Positions 1 through 7,697 of a stretch of 8,002 nt of DNA are shown here, one piece after another. This DNA is from a bacterium (lineage in GTDB: Bacteria > Blakebacterota > Blakebacteria > Blakebacterales > Blakebacteraceae), in contig JALGWK010000291.1 in assembly GCA_025774205.1 (NCBI GenBank), forward strand, positions 1 to 8,002. The letters are read 5' to 3'. How positions within the stretch are numbered: the stretch's first letter is position 1; every line of letters begins with the position of its first letter. Made by a program: the position numbers and the translations under genes. The notes beneath the pieces were generated by a model. The model was not told where the DNA came from, did not search any database, and saw only the letters and a list, made by a program, of their open reading frames with translations.

Positions 1-1217
1 CCGCCCTGTGATTCGGTCAGGAAGAGTTCCGGATTCTCGGGGTGCGCCACCGCGAAGAAGCCGTCGCCACTGCTGATCTTCTTCCAGTCACTGTTCAGGA
101 TCCCGGAGGAATCCCTGGTGCGGCTCGGTCCATACCAGGTGCAGTTATCCTGGAGACCTCCGCCTACGAAGTAGAACGGTTCCCGGTTGTCGGCGTAGAG
201 CTGGTAGAACTGCGAGAAGGGCAGCAGCCCCACGTATTCCCAGCTGTCTCCCCGGTCGTAGCTGACCCCCACACCGCCGTCCGAAGCCTGCCAGATACGG
301 TCGGGATCCTCCGGATCGATCCAGACGGCATGGTAATCGGAGTGGAGACCGCGGGAGACCTGCTCGAACCGGCTGCCGCCGTCGATGGAGCGGTAGAGCC
401 AGATGGCCATGGCGAAGACGCGGTTCTCATCGGTCGGGTCGACCCGGATATCCGCGTAGTAGAATCCGCGCGAGACGATCCGGGCATCATCACTGACCAT
501 CCGGAACTGCTCGCCGCCGTCGTCGGACCGGAAGAGGGAACCCTCCCGGGACTCGGCGATCACGTAGACCACCCGGGGATTGCCGGGCGCGACCTTGACA
601 CCGATCCGGCCCATCAGGCGGGGGAGGCCGCGATCGAGTTTATGCCACGTGTCTCCACCATCGACCGATCTGAACACACCGCCGTTCTCGCTCCCGCTGG
701 TGAAGTTCCACGGCTTCCGTTCGAAATGCCACATTCCGGCGTAGAGGATGTTCGGATTCCCGGGATCGATATCCATATCGCTGACGCCATGTTCATCATC
801 GGGATCGATCACGATCCGGGATATGTGCCTGGTCTCTTCCAGGCCCAGGTGTCGCCAGGTCCGCCCGCCGTCGGTGCTCTTGTAGACTCCGTTCCCGAAA
901 GCGACAGTATTGCGGAAATTCGACTCCCCGGTTCCGACGTAGATGACCTCCGGATTGCCCGGTTCCAGCGCGATATCTCCGATCGAAGCGATCGGCTGAT
1001 CATCGAAGATCGGCTGCCACGAGATGCCGCCGTTCACGGTCTTCCAGACCCCGCCGGAGGCGGCGGCCGCGTACACGGTCCGCGGATCCCCGGGAACTCC
1101 TTCGACATCGGTAGCCGCGGTCATGTCGGGCTGGTCCACCTGGCGGGCTTCGACCGGCCCGATGAGCGCCGCCAGCATGATGAGCGAGGAGAGGACTGTT
1201 CGTGTTCGGGATCTCAT
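1..1217 (-). CDS. Secreted BNR/sortilin-type beta-propeller protein (glycosyl hydrolase-like), 3' end off the window
   Basis: About 405 N-terminal residues of a larger exported protein are present. Residues 1-24 form a signal peptide: Arg at 2, 4 and 6, a hydrophobic stretch from 8 to 20, and a likely cut after V-E-A. The mature part repeats the BNR/Asp-box pattern S/T-x-D-G-G-x-T/S-W many times (KTVNGGISW, KSTDGGRTW, RSVDGGDTW, RSDDGGEQF, RSIDGGSRF, SYDRGDSW), alternating with D-P-x-N/D-P turns. This is the VPS10/sortilin-like seven-bladed propeller family often annotated as glycosyl hydrolase; full members usually run to 700-1000 residues, and the actual substrate is generally unknown. The start ATG overlaps the ferredoxin stop as ATGA, with a GAGAG element just upstream, so it is the last visible gene of the operon. 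Between residues about 140 and 150 the protein jumps from one blade to the next, and about 35-40 expected residues seem to be missing (see findings). The reading frame is otherwise open to the edge. Confidence 0.88.
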   Translation of the reverse strand, partial: MRSRTRTVLSSLIMLAALIGPVEARQVDQPDMTAATDVEGVPGDPRTVYAAAASGGVWKTVNGGISWQPIFDDQPIASIGDIALEPGNPEVIYVGTGESNFRNTVAFGNGVYKSTDGGRTWRHLGLEETRHISRIVIDPDDEHGVSDMDIDPGNPNILYAGMWHFERKPWNFTSGSENGGVFRSVDGGDTWHKLDRGLPRLMGRIGVKVAPGNPRVVYVIAESREGSLFRSDDGGEQFRMVSDDARIVSRGFYYADIRVDPTDENRVFAMAIWLYRSIDGGSRFEQVSRGLHSDYHAVWIDPEDPDRIWQASDGGVGVSYDRGDSWEYVGLLPFSQFYQLYADNREPFYFVGGGLQDNCTWYGPSRTRDSSGILNSDWKKISSGDGFFAVAHPENPELFLTESQG

Positions 1218-1501
1218 GATCTGCTCTCTTTCAGCTTCCAGTTCACCCTGTTCGCGGGCGGATGTACGAGTCGTATAGCACCCGGGACCGGACAGACCTC
1301 CACGCAGCTGCCCTCGTACCAGCACTCCTCCGGATAGCGGAGGATCGGTGGGCCGCCCTTCTCCGGATGGGGGAGCATCAGATCGACCTGGCATACCTCG
1401 AGGCACAGGTTGCATCCGGTGCACAGTTCGGGATCGATGAAGAGCGGGGCGGGGACTTCTTCCCGCAGAGGTCCTTCGCCGAGGCGGCTTCGATCCGTCA
1501 T
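1214..1501 (-). CDS. Small 4Fe-4S ferredoxin, AprB-like, partner of the upstream flavoprotein
   Basis: A 95-residue electron-transfer protein. The first cluster motif is complete (C27-x2-C30-x2-C33-x3-C37). The second reads C60-W-Y-E63-G-S-C66-x3-C70-P, so the usual second cysteine is Glu63. The C-W-x-x-G-x-C-V-x-x-C-P pattern followed by P-G-A-I and a short basic tail resembles the small beta subunit of adenylylsulfate-reductase-type and other ferredoxins paired with FrdA/AprA-like flavoproteins. By inference it carries electrons to or from the flavoprotein encoded just upstream. The start ATG is preceded by a GGGGGAG ribosome-binding site and overlaps, as ATGA, a stop codon that ends the displaced flavoprotein tail. 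Its own stop overlaps the BNR-protein start as ATGA. Such tight overlaps point to translational coupling and a joint transcript. Whether Glu63 ligates iron or one cluster is incomplete cannot be told from the sequence. Confidence 0.9.
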   Translation of the reverse strand: MTDRSRLGEGPLREEVPAPLFIDPELCTGCNLCLEVCQVDLMLPHPEKGGPPILRYPEECWYEGSCVEVCPVPGAIRLVHPPANRVNWKLKESRS

Positions 1502-1596
1502 CGTTCCGCTCCCCCGGTCAGGTATGAGCGGTTGTGCTGTTCGTAGTTCTCCTCGAAAGAGCCGTAGTAATCGATCGGCCGTTCACCCGTCACCAC
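1498..1596 (-). pseudogene. Displaced C-terminal tail of the flavoprotein in another frame
   Basis: Just past the flavoprotein stop, a different frame reads V-V-T-G-E-R-P-I-D-Y-Y-G-S-F-E-E-N-Y-E-Q and about a dozen more residues before a TGA. That TGA overlaps the ferredoxin ATG as ATGA, the same junction used at the next gene boundary. A P-x-D-Y-x-G-x-x-x-E-N-Y-E ending is what I would expect for the end of this flavoprotein family (recalled, not searched). I infer that the native gene ended here and that an out-of-frame lesion near 1593-1602 separated the tail from the body. Confidence 0.6.
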
Positions 1597-3296
1597 TGGA
1601 GGTGTTTCGAACTGGCCTGACGGGCGAGGCTGGCATGCAGGATGAGCCGGGCGTTCGTCAGGATGTTCATGACCTCGAGGGTACGGATCAGTTCATGCGG
1701 ATTCCCGGCCCGGAGCCGCGGCACTTCGTGCTCCTCCAGGTCGTCCAGCGCGGCCAGGCCCGATTCAAGCAGGTCGGCGGTCTTGAAGGCGCCACAGTGG
1801 TGCTGCATCTGTCTGGCGACAGCGGCGTTGAGTTCCTTCCAGGTGAGTCCCCTCTTCCGGTCGAGCGGCGCCATGATCCGGTCTCTTTCGATCTCAGCCT
1901 GTTCTGCCGATATCGGTGCGTCAGCAGCATGCATGGCGAACTCCACCGCGTGCCGGCCGGCGTAGTGACCGGTGGCCGCCGCGTGTCCGTGGCAATTGGA
2001 CGCGAACAGCTGATCACCGGCCGCGAAGAGTCCCTCCAGGTTGGTCCGCAGTTCCCAGTCATTCATCATGCCGCCGGGTAATCCGAAGAGCTGTCTCTCC
2101 TGCGGCAGGAACGCGCCCGAGCGCCAGCCGTCACCATAACTCTGCAGCAGGTGGGTGTCGGGGTCGAATCCGGCCCCGGTGTAGTTCTGAAGGATCGGAA
2201 CCTTCGTCTTGCCCTCCTCACCGACCATCAGGCCCCAGATCGCTCGCCGCTCGAGCTCGGGCATCCCCGGCAGGTCGGCGTAGAAGGGCAGTTTGAAACC
2301 CTGCTCGAGGAGCTGGTCGACCGGAAGCGTGTCGGGTCCCAGGTAGTCGTGGAGGGGGAAGTACGATTCCCCGCCGCCCTTGATGAAGAACCTCTGTCCC
2401 GGTGCCGGACGGTATCGCTCGGAAACGGACTCGAGGAGCCTGCCGTCACGATCAACCCACGGGATCTCCCGTCCCTCGGCGTCGACCATGGAACAGGCAT
2501 ACCAGGTGTTGTGCGTGTTGCCGGTCCCGTAGGGGGGATAACTCCGTTCTCCCGACCACTCCGCCTGGACCGATTTCTCCATCATGGTGAACTCGACGCC
2601 GGCCTTCCAGCCCATGGCATGACCGTCTCCGGTGCATTGCGGAGGTCTGAACTCGGAGAGCCCCGGCAGCCCGGTCGAGAAGAGCCAGATCCGGGTCGGC
2701 CGGGACATGGCCAGCACGGTGGCGCCGGCCCGGAGGACCAGGAACTCCCCCGTGCGCCCGTTGACGGCCGTGGCGCCGATGATCCTGCCGCCCTGCCGGC
2801 CCTCCTCCGAGAGGAGCGAGGTCGCCATGGTCCGGTCGATGACCTGTACTCCCAGCCGCCTGCATTCGGCGTGCAGGGCCGATTTGAAGGTCGTTCCCCA
2901 TACCCTCAGCGTGAACCGGTTCACGTAGTCGTAGGCGAAGAGGAATTTCGTCTTCTCGTCACGGAATTCGGCGCCCGCGAACTCATCCTCGCTGTCCCGG
3001 ATCTTGCCGCCCATCGCCTCCAGGTCGAGGAGACGGTCATATCCCTCCCGGCATTCGATGTAATGGGAGATACCGTTGTTGTAACCGCCATGGTCGGCGA
3101 TCATCGCCCGGGTGAGTTCTTCCGGGGTGACCCCGGAGCAGGGATTGGTGGCAGCCGATTCCCAGTGATCGCAGCCCGATCCCGCGGCTCCACTGCTCAC
3201 CGTGGCGCCCTTCTCGACAAGCGTCACCCCGACACCTTCCCTCGCGGCGGCTATCGCGGCCCAGCACCCGGCGATTCCGCCGCCGAGCACCAGCAC
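1590..3296 (-). CDS. FAD-dependent oxidoreductase, fumarate reductase/AprA flavoprotein family (frame broken at both ends)
   Basis: The readable frame gives 568 residues from a GTG. It opens directly with the Rossmann dinucleotide motif V-L-G-G-G-I-A-G-C and the E-K that binds the FAD ribose about 20 residues later. It carries the C-terminal FAD motif N-L-E-G-L-F-A-A-G-D-Q followed by the G-H-A-A-A-T-G-H helix near residues 415-440. Overall architecture (FAD domain, capping domain around residues 230-350, helical C-terminal region) fits the FrdA/SdhA/AprA superfamily. The partner ferredoxin downstream and symporter upstream suggest a soluble two-subunit redox enzyme acting on an imported substrate; the substrate is unknown. 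The annotated GTG is probably not the true start: an in-frame TGA lies three codons upstream, whereas an ATG at 3316 coupled to the symporter stop encodes M-E-S-L-E in a frame one base off. The 3' end is also cut short; the family-like tail continues in another frame to 1498. The gene is therefore either a recent pseudogene or miscalled by sequence errors. Confidence 0.87.
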   Translation of the reverse strand: MLVLGGGIAGCWAAIAAAREGVGVTLVEKGATVSSGAAGSGCDHWESAATNPCSGVTPEELTRAMIADHGGYNNGISHYIECREGYDRLLDLEAMGGKIRDSEDEFAGAEFRDEKTKFLFAYDYVNRFTLRVWGTTFKSALHAECRRLGVQVIDRTMATSLLSEEGRQGGRIIGATAVNGRTGEFLVLRAGATVLAMSRPTRIWLFSTGLPGLSEFRPPQCTGDGHAMGWKAGVEFTMMEKSVQAEWSGERSYPPYGTGNTHNTWYACSMVDAEGREIPWVDRDGRLLESVSERYRPAPGQRFFIKGGGESYFPLHDYLGPDTLPVDQLLEQGFKLPFYADLPGMPELERRAIWGLMVGEEGKTKVPILQNYTGAGFDPDTHLLQSYGDGWRSGAFLPQERQLFGLPGGMMNDWELRTNLEGLFAAGDQLFASNCHGHAAATGHYAGRHAVEFAMHAADAPISAEQAEIERDRIMAPLDRKRGLTWKELNAAVARQMQHHCGAFKTADLLESGLAALDDLEEHEVPRLRAGNPHELIRTLEVMNILTNARLILHASLARQASSKHLQW

Positions 3297-4848: not shown

Positions 4849-6072
4849 TCAGCGTTTCTTTGCTTTCCTGAACACCACCTTCTCGATCCCTGCCCGCCTG
4901 GCGATCGACTCAAGCTCCAGGGCCCGGGCTCCCGGATTCTCCTCGTCCTCGACCAGGATCGTGAGCGTCTCGACCGGTTGCCGGGCGATGAGCCGCATCA
5001 GGGCCTCTTCGACCTCGTGCGAGTCGAGCAGGGAGCGACTCAGCAGGACCTCACCCTCATCGGTGATCGTGGCGACCAGATCGTCACTTTCGGTCAGGGC
5101 CGAGAGCAGGACACTGCTGCTGCCCGCCCAGGGTGTAAAGGAGAAGCCACCTGACTGAGGCGACCAGGCCATGGCGGGAGAGAAGTTGTAGTAGGGTGAA
5201 GTCGAATCGCCACGGGTGAAGTACCAACTGCCGGTTGAGTCGCCACCCTGGCGCGCGAAGGCATAGTTCCAGGCGACCTGGGCCGCTCCTCCCTCGCTTT
5301 CATCCGACCGCCGGCCGGTGACGAACCAGTGGCCTTCGTCATCCTTTTCACCCTTCACGAAGAACGACCAGTTCTGGGGGGTCCAGCCGACAGCTCTCTC
5401 ACCGGAGGGGCTCCTCGTCGACCAGACCTGGTTGTTGAGGAGGGCCATGTTCCGGGCCCAGTAGCTGGCAACTCCCACGACTCCGCTGCCCACGTGGATC
5501 TCGTCGATCCCCAGTTCCTCCCGGAGAGGATCGAGGTCGGAGAGGTTCACGGAAACCGGATCGTCACCTCCTGATCCGGTCAGGAGGATGTCCCGGTATT
5601 CCCCCTCCCGCAGGAGGGGCTTGAGCTGCCTGATCAGCTCATCGAGTTCGAATCGCCCTTCGAGCAGGTCGGTGCTGAAGGTCGTCTCGGTGTGAACGGT
5701 CAGCACCAGGACGGTGTCGGGCACGGCCTCGCCGGCAGTCTGGGCATAGGCCGGGGAGGTCAGGCTGAAGATGGTGCCCAGGTTCACAGTCGGCCTGAGA
5801 GGACTCCAGATGACGGTCTGGAAAAGCATGGTCGCCATCACCACCAGCGCCACCAGCGCCACCCGGCGCAGCCACGGTCTGAACGGGCGGGTCGAGTCGC
5901 CGTTCACCGCCGGGTGTTCGATCCGGCTGGAGTCGATCAGTTCGACGCTCCGCCTCACCTTCTCGATGACACTCTCTTCCAGCGGTCGGTCGGGCCAGGT
6001 CGCGAGCCAGTCTCCGGTCGCCCGGCACGATTCGAATTCCAGCCGGCACGTCTCACACGCAGCGGCTTTCAC
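4849..6072 (-). CDS. Membrane-anchored anti-sigma factor with two ExbD/TolR-like regions (N-terminus out of frame)
   Basis: The readable 407 residues start at a GTG and open with A-C6-E-T-C9-R, the C-x-x-C end of a zf-HC2 anti-sigma zinc finger. A single membrane span covers about residues 68-89 (W-L-R-R then V-A-L-V-A-L-V-V-M-A), giving an N-in, C-out topology. The extracytoplasmic part has three sections. Residues 120-195 have a strand-helix-strand-helix-strand pattern ending E-L-G-I-D-E-I-H-V-G. Residues 200-320 are rich in W, Y, F, G and S (W-N-Y, W-Y-F-T-R-G-D-S, F-S-F-T-P-W). Residues 330-402 run D-L-V-A-T-I-T-D-E-G-E-V-L-L, then V-E-E-A-L-M-R-L, T-I-L-V-E-D-E and A-R-R-A-G-I-E-K-V-V-F, closely resembling the ExbD/TolR periplasmic domain. 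By inference it holds the ECF sigma at the membrane and senses an envelope state. The native N-terminus (from ATG 6130) lies in another frame and the finger's histidine is absent. Confidence 0.75.
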   Translation of the reverse strand: MKAAACETCRLEFESCRATGDWLATWPDRPLEESVIEKVRRSVELIDSSRIEHPAVNGDSTRPFRPWLRRVALVALVVMATMLFQTVIWSPLRPTVNLGTIFSLTSPAYAQTAGEAVPDTVLVLTVHTETTFSTDLLEGRFELDELIRQLKPLLREGEYRDILLTGSGGDDPVSVNLSDLDPLREELGIDEIHVGSGVVGVASYWARNMALLNNQVWSTRSPSGERAVGWTPQNWSFFVKGEKDDEGHWFVTGRRSDESEGGAAQVAWNYAFARQGGDSTGSWYFTRGDSTSPYYNFSPAMAWSPQSGGFSFTPWAGSSSVLLSALTESDDLVATITDEGEVLLSRSLLDSHEVEEALMRLIARQPVETLTILVEDEENPGARALELESIARRAGIEKVVFRKAKKR

Positions 6073-6130
6073 GGGGCGGCAGTTCGTTTCGGTAGAACTC
6101 GAGAATCCTGTCTGAAGTCGGGTGTTTCAT
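6071..6130 (-). pseudogene. Displaced N-terminus of the anti-sigma factor
   Basis: From an ATG overlapping the sigma-factor stop as ATGA, a frame reads M-K-H-P-T-S-D-R-I-L-E-F-Y-R-N-E-L-P-P-R. It then runs into a stop 5 codons later, while the adjoining frame continues as A-A-A-C-E-T-C-R. The joined sequence is a normal zf-HC2 opening apart from a missing stretch that should contain the H of H-x3-C-x2-C. I infer a small out-of-frame deletion near 6066-6073. Confidence 0.7.
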
Positions 6131-6668
6131 CTGATCTCACCTGCCTCATGGAGGGTGACTTCCCTCCGCAATCGGGTCATTGCGCTCCTCATCCTGGATT
6201 TCACAGTCCCCAGCGGGATATCGAGAATCTCAGCGATCTCCCGGTATCTCAGATCATGATAGAAGGAGAGGAGGATCACCTGTCTTTCCGGCGCGGGTAT
6301 CGACTGGAGTGCCGAACGGAGGTGCTCCCGGTTATGGTATTCCGTCTCGGGGCAGGAGGTGCTGCCTGACTCGAGGGGCCATGATCCCGGGACCGAAGCC
6401 TTCCTGTTCTCGTCCCGTTGACGCCGCCTGATCTCATCGAGACCGGTGTTGGCCGCGATACGGAAGAGGCCCCCCTCGCCGGATCGAACCGGGAGAGGTT
6501 GAGGTACGCCTTGAGGAAGACCTCCTGGAGCAGGTCGTCGATGTCGTCTCCGTCGGGCAGGAAGCGGTGGAGATAGTTGGCGATTGCCCCGGCATGGCGC
6601 TCAACGAGCGTGCCGAAGGCTTCATGCTCTCCCCGCTTCGCTCTCTCTACCGTTGTCGGATCAACCAT
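6127..6668 (-). pseudogene. ECF-family RNA polymerase sigma factor, split by a frameshift in region 2
   Basis: The first 66 residues give sigma region 2: A-F-G-T-L-V-E-R-H, then D-D-I-D-D-L-L-Q-E-V-F-L-K-A-Y and F-D-P-A-R-G. In that frame the protein then turns into nonsense. From 6471 another frame continues with L-F-R-I-A-A-N-T-G-L-D-E-I-R-R-R (end of region 2), a linker, and region 4: L-R-S-A-L-Q-S-I-P-A-P-E-R-Q-V-I-L-L, R-Y-R-E-I-A-E-I-L-D-I-P-L-G-T-V-K-S-R-M. It ends at a TGA that overlaps the anti-sigma start. Together the parts make about 180 residues, normal for ECF sigmas. The conserved G-S-F-x-x-W-L segment between the halves is absent, so bases are missing at the run of six G at 6470-6475. 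If the lesion is a sequencing or assembly error the gene is functional; if real, sigma activity is probably lost. It should be autoregulated with the anti-sigma, as is usual for such pairs. Confidence 0.82.
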
Positions 6669-6864: not shown

Positions 6865-7697
6865 ATGCATTTCGGTACCCGGTCCTGGTCAGCACGGTTC
6901 ATCTGTTCCGATGAGGGATTGCGGGAGGCAGCGGGCGATCTGCTCGGCGGCCTCTCCCGGGATACCCGGAACCTGCCATGACCGCGACTTCCGACTTGTC
7001 GTCGGGGAAGATGAGCCGAGGGTCTGGCCTGACCAGGGCCAGGTTCTCGTCGATCTTCACTGGAACATCCTCGAGGCAGCTTTTCGGGGCAGAGCGGGGT
7101 TGTTGTCGATCCATGCCGGCCTGGTGGACCGGGGTGCCGGAGGTGTCCTGATCACCGGCAGGTGTCCTGATCACCGGCGATTCGGAAGCCGGGAAATCCA
7201 CCCTGGTAATGGCGGCCTGCAGGGCCGGCGCGCTGTTCGGTGGAGACGATCTGATCCACTTCGATCCCGGCGCCCTCGAAGCGATCCCGTTCCCCATCTC
7301 TCCGAAACTCACCAGGGCGGAAGAGGATCATTCTGATGGAGCCGCGGAGTATCCGGTTCTGCTCCAGGCCGCCGTGGAAGGTGTTGCCGGGACCGAATAC
7401 CGCTCCTATCTCGATCCCGATGGTTTCTGCCGGGGGATAGCAGGGGAGGGCCCCCTGTCGGCGGTCATCATCCGTCGGCCCCCGCATACTGTTCCGGCAG
7501 AGCTGATTCCGATCACACCGGCCGCCGGTCTGCAGAGACTCTTCGATCAGATCCAGTGCCACCGGGAGGATCGCGTGGACGCGTTCGAAGGATTGAGCGC
7601 GATGCTGGAACAGGTACCGGTATTCGAAGCTGTCGGTGAGGCTGAAGAACTCGTTGAGATGATCCCGGAGCGTATTGCCCCGGGACCGTCAGTGTAA
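6865..7697 (+). pseudogene. HprK-like P-loop kinase, broken by two frameshifts
   Basis: Three consecutive frames together encode about 275 residues. Part one (6865-6978) reads M-H-F-G-T-R-S-W-S-A-R-F-I-C, to G-G-L-S-R-D-T-R-N-L-P. Part two (from about 6980) reads D-R-D-F-R-L-V-V-G-E-D, then V-D-L-H-W-N-I-L-E-A-A-F and L-L-S-I-H-A-G-L-V-D. Part three (7161 to the TAA) starts with the Walker A motif G-D-S-E-A-G-K-S-T, followed by F-G-G-D-D-L-I-H-F-D and I-P-F-P-I-S-P-K-L. This is the pattern of proteins with the HPr kinase C-terminal fold: an N-terminal L-H-x-x-x-L strand, a P-loop in which E replaces the usual second G, and a D-D acidic pair. Such homologues occur outside sugar regulation, including peptide-modifying gene clusters. 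The first break is one extra base at 6978-6979; the second is a 19-base tandem duplication just before Walker A. Removing both restores a continuous protein. A methyltransferase gene follows after 17 bases, probably co-transcribed. Confidence 0.72.
7141..7178. repeat. Exact 19-base tandem duplication within the kinase gene
   Basis: The unit AGGTGTCCTGATCACCGGC occurs twice back to back without a mismatch. It encodes G-V-L-I-T-G, the strand leading into the P-loop. Nineteen bases shift the frame by one, so translation from upstream never reaches the Walker A lysine. With a single copy the protein reads A-G-G-V-L-I-T-G-D-S-E-A-G-K-S-T without a break. Confidence 0.95.

Follow-up and report, generated by a model that had tools for sequence, protein, structure and literature searches.

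A predicted membrane anti-sigma factor carrying a C-terminal ExbD/TolR-like periplasmic domain

Cell-surface signaling anti-sigma factors of the FecR/PupR/FoxR type use site-2 proteolysis (PMC11637429), and in those of the RsiV type a periplasmic or extracellular sensor domain is described as controlling proteolysis and release of the sigma factor (PMC5014341, PMC4183432). ExbD is not mentioned in the main text of a survey of about 10,900 class I anti-sigma factors (PMC7406223), and literature searches for a fusion of an anti-sigma factor with ExbD found no description of one. The periplasmic domain of ExbD dimerizes, is able to open that dimer, and binds the glycan chains of peptidoglycan (PMC10771500), and TolR shows cryptic peptidoglycan binding (PMC4646322). 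Here we describe a candidate anti-sigma factor gene, next to an ECF sigma factor gene, whose product ends in an ExbD/TolR-like domain.

The DNA analyzed (the window) is an entire 8002-base contig from the draft genome of an uncultured bacterium (527 contigs, 86% complete). The open frame on which the initial annotation was based does exist; it lies on the minus strand, and the plus strand of the same interval contains stops (Table 1). Also on the minus strand are genes for an FAD-dependent oxidoreductase (FAD_binding_2, with a C-terminus of the succinate/fumarate-reductase type) and then a two-cluster 4Fe-4S ferredoxin (1214-3296), an order that we take to recall adenylylsulfate reductase AprBA, and for a Sortilin/Vps10-type BNR-repeat protein that runs to the contig end (3-1250). 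The sole relative of the anti-sigma protein, with 38% identity, is encoded on contig JALGVQ010000021.1 of isolate Meg19_1012_Bin_119, a member of the same genus. Scans of GTDB contigs found no ortholog beyond this copy. The comparison lineage is sparse, with three further genomes at the family level.

Table 1. Positions in the 8002-base window of the sigma factor gene and of the parts of the anti-sigma gene; residue numbers count from the listed GTG start.
Feature	Positions	Strand	Details
ECF sigma factor gene	6127..6668	minus	ATG 6668 to TGA 6127; two frames, break near 6465
Probable true anti-sigma N-terminus (MKHPTSDRILEFYRNELPPRE...)	6073..6130	minus	Aligns with ortholog N-terminus; ATG 6130
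Anti-sigma main frame	4849..6072	minus	407 codons; listed start GTG 6072
CETC, CxxC half of zinc motif	6046..6057	minus	Residues 6-9; ortholog has HLELCDEC
Single transmembrane helix	5806..5862	minus	Residues 71-89; 19-residue hydropathy 2.27; ortholog likewise
D1, first periplasmic domain	5488..5715	minus	Residues 120-195; predicted strand-strand-helix-strand-helix-strand
Aromatic-rich middle	5098..5466	minus	Residues 203-325; pLDDT mostly under 40
D2, ExbD/TolR-like periplasmic domain	4864..5097	minus	Residues 326-403; Pfam, reverse search, profile comparison

The ECF sigma factor gene lies upstream of the anti-sigma frame on the same strand. When its two frames are joined, the product matches Sigma70_r2 (1.2e-15) and Sigma70_r4 (3.1e-15) of Pfam as well as TIGR02937 (7e-25). 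Its stop codon overlaps ATG 6130 within the four bases ATGA; from this ATG the MKHPTSDRILEFYRNELPPRE stretch is read out of frame relative to the 407-codon main frame. Because this ATG overlaps the sigma stop, and because the peptide that it begins aligns with the ortholog N-terminus, it is probably the real anti-sigma start, and the listed GTG probably is not. The ortholog sigma gene is intact and the pair is arranged as in the window, so that the adjacency to an ECF sigma gene sought for a class I zinc anti-sigma factor is seen both in the ATGA overlap and in an operon common to the two genomes, which supports the anti-sigma identity first proposed. A search for a shared ECF-type promoter upstream of both sigma genes (window and ortholog) gave nothing convincing.

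The zf-HC2-type N-terminus proposed for this protein survives in the ortholog more clearly than in the window. The window frame has a zinc motif reduced to CxxC by the frame break; the stretch expected to hold the motif His is absent from the contig, Pfam zf-HC2 gives no match, and the NCBIfam 'antisigma' model matches at E 0.002, falling far short of its cut-off. In the ortholog the motif is complete (HxxxCxxC), with a zf-HC2 match at E 8.5e-5. The ortholog anti-sigma gene is out of frame at a 38-base tandem duplication directly before the transmembrane helix (L005:4150-4320, minus strand), which might stem from misassembly or act as a reversible frame switch; both known copies are frame-broken draft sequence. 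Elsewhere in the ortholog genome a short remnant (L006:2961-3140, plus strand), a broken paralog, has a 60% match to the final 30 residues of the window protein; it lies downstream of a gene for a response regulator that is encoded on the opposite strand. A P-loop ORF of the window (...GVLITGDSEAGKSTLVMAACRAGALFGGDDLIHFD...; 7120-7200, plus strand) is also split between frames, with a short direct repeat that encodes GVLITG twice; this split looks like an assembly error.

Hydropathy bears out the single membrane span of the initial annotation, at about residues 71-89. No acidic residue occurs in this helix in the window protein or the ortholog, whereas the transmembrane Asp of ExbD was invariant in the 15 ExbDs compared. 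Having a helix without the proton-carrying Asp, the protein is evidently not a proton-conducting motor subunit of the ExbD type, and the likeness to ExbD that had been suggested holds for the periplasmic domain but not for the transmembrane helix. No exbB, exbD, tonB, or tolQ gene was found in the window or in the 7.5 kb around the ortholog.

The ExbD/TolR resemblance previously seen at residues 330-402 is well beyond chance. The Pfam ExbD model matched residues 326-402 at E 0.007, which falls short of the curated cut-off, and the ortholog domain at E 0.12; an ExbD family search of the genome found the anti-sigma locus unprompted (E 0.02). In the reverse search, a two-sequence D2 profile (window plus ortholog) run against 386 diverse genomes with E up to 0.02 gave matches in 33 genomes, nearly all of them ORFs of 130-190 codons. 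With a check profile built solely from ExbDs found independently of the window protein, 28 of the 29 outside loci examined proved to be ExbD/TolR at E 1e-8 or better. Comparison of the D2 profile with the independently found ExbDs (alignment A6) gave E 1e-5 over 71 columns, a score reached by none of 200 column shuffles. The E of 3e-11 obtained against alignment A3 is too favorable, since the reverse search itself supplied some of the ExbDs in A3; the A6 value is the quotable one. In a low-confidence model, residues 334-403 are predicted to form a strand, strand, helix, strand, helix, and strand, which matches the order in the TolR core (PMC4646322). The full-length model was poor (pLDDT 44), and searches of PDB sequences with the D1 or D2 profile found no relative. 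Judged by the reverse search and the profile comparison, with a Pfam score under the cut-off, D2 belongs to the ExbD/TolR periplasmic domain family, and the C-terminal 75 residues of the protein are homologous in sequence to that domain. A weak C-terminal ExbD match (GQVLVDGKPMDLNALRNLLEQVLSGQIQIITIIIR; E 0.1-0.3) was also observed in two related 400-residue proteins of secreted type (L015 and L019; G002:C119 and G001:C172).

Between the membrane and D2 lie D1 and the aromatic-rich middle. D1 is conserved, with 38 of 83 residues identical to the ortholog over positions 120-202, and it had no family match in Pfam, PDB sequences, or the 386 genomes. The initial annotation had regarded it as a second, more diverged ExbD look-alike; no sequence test links it to ExbD. 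Its hhalign probabilities against the ExbD profile were 0.2% and 0.1%, 112 of 200 shuffles scored as well, and there was no ExbD among the D1 profile matches in the 386 genomes. What speaks for the look-alike is the arrangement of predicted strands and helices, whose order in a model of D1 alone (pLDDT 66.7, pTM 0.57) is that of D2 and TolR, and a weak alignment with D2 over 73 columns. The score of that alignment was reached by 1 of 200 shuffles initially and by 13 of 1500 in the larger run, which is the one used here, and by none over at least 60 columns. These comparisons hint that D1 and D2 may be an old internal repeat; a second ExbD-like domain at residues 120-195 is unproven. Foldseek and VIA-align 2 found nothing significant for either the full-length model or the D1 model, and no ExbD/TolR was among the fold matches; this carries little weight, because the models are weak and only two sequences are available. 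The aromatic richness noted earlier is real in the window protein (22 F/W/Y among 123 residues, 18%) but is not conserved, being missing in the ortholog (3 of 105, 3%), so that residues 203-325 are probably a variable linker.

We favor the interpretation, with a probability of roughly 0.6, that the protein is a class I membrane anti-sigma factor in which an ExbD/TolR-like domain forms the periplasmic sensor or the dimerization part of that sensor. In the orientation this implies, the zinc-type N-terminal domain would hold the sigma factor in the cytoplasm, one helix would span the membrane, and about 310 residues would project into the periplasm as the alpha/beta domain D1, the variable linker, and the ExbD/TolR-homologous C-terminal domain. 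By analogy with ExbD and TolR, D2 may alternate between two states, a closed dimer and an open form touching peptidoglycan as its ligand; cell-wall damage or remodeling would then alter the dimer state and expose a membrane-proximal stretch to a site-1 protease, and a site-2 protease, acting after that cut, would free the sigma factor. The genome encodes M50 (site-2 type) proteases. Their presence, together with the peptidoglycan binding of ExbD and TolR, makes cell-wall sensing or dimer switching followed by regulated proteolysis the likeliest mode of action; the peptidoglycan/dimer mechanism itself is offered tentatively, as possible rather than probable.

Given the frame breaks in both window genes, the 38-base duplication in the ortholog anti-sigma gene, and the C-terminal remnant elsewhere in the ortholog genome, the sigma/anti-sigma pair might instead be decaying and non-functional. 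However, the breaks do not coincide between the two genomes and the P-loop ORF of the window is likewise broken by a short direct repeat, so that assembly error is the simplest explanation for the frame breaks; the remainder of the anti-sigma frame, moreover, is open for about 400 codons. We consider decay unlikely. Another alternative is that D2 pairs with a genuine ExbD or TolR of the cell, in which case the sigma factor would respond to how abundant a Ton/Tol motor is, or to its state, and not to peptidoglycan as such. The genome does encode several ExbD proteins, and the periplasmic domains of ExbD and TolR form strand-swapped dimers (PMC4646322, PMC10771500). Against such pairing are the absence of motor genes beside either copy and the strong divergence of D2 from the cell's own ExbDs (single-sequence E 4e-4 to 0.14), which lowers the likelihood of a mixed dimer, and we think this arrangement quite improbable. 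Doubtful to a still greater degree is an ECF switch that reads the proton-driven envelope motor, in which the ExbD-like tail would swap strands or dimerize with real ExbD/TolR and motor assembly or activity would control transcription.

A different kind of objection is that D2 resembles ExbD through a common strand-helix pattern, such as that of DUF7931 or another alpha/beta domain, and is not homologous to it. The sub-threshold Pfam score would fit this, as would the finding that DUF7931 (E 8e-4) beats ExbD (E 4.6e-3) as a match to the isolated D2 fragment. Identification of D2 as DUF7931 was nevertheless rejected, as DUF7931 has no match in the ortholog and its members fail profile comparison with D2. 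The reverse search, moreover, returns ExbD almost exclusively and shuffles fail to reproduce the score, so that a pattern-only resemblance appears largely refuted and has very little left to recommend it.

The preferred reading of the protein, as a class I anti-sigma factor with an ExbD/TolR-like sensor domain, places it among several described systems. It shares with class I (ASDI) zinc anti-sigma factors the operon with an ECF gene, the HxxxCxxC motif (in the ortholog), the one transmembrane helix, and the C-terminal sensor, and differs from them in that its sensor has an ExbD/TolR-like domain. Of the other zf-HC2 proteins inspected in the source genome and four more genomes, none has an ExbD-like tail, and among the 386 genomes no further fusion was conspicuous; one partial match there lay in a 437-codon frame (G226). 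Like the FecR/PupR/FoxR-type proteins, it is an anti-sigma factor that crosses the membrane once and has its C-terminal domain in the periplasm; in those proteins this is an STN-type domain, which binds a TonB-dependent transducer, whereas Pfam scans with E up to 10 found no FecR or STN domain in the window protein or the ortholog. The sensor of RsiV-type proteins is a lysozyme receptor and belongs to a different family. With ExbD and TolR, the protein has in common a single transmembrane helix followed by a periplasmic domain, and the homologous C-terminal 75 residues; it differs in the missing transmembrane Asp, the long N-terminal cytoplasmic anti-sigma part, the lack of an exbB neighbor, and the domain and linker added between the membrane and the ExbD-like domain. 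The ExbD/TolR-like tail is a new type of sensor on an otherwise familiar kind of protein, and has been seen to date in one genus. The ligand of many membrane anti-sigma sensors is unknown, and a sensor built from an ExbD/TolR domain suggests a concrete input for an ECF pathway, as well as the possibility that this domain can serve as a sensor in the absence of the proton-conducting helix that accompanies it in the motor.
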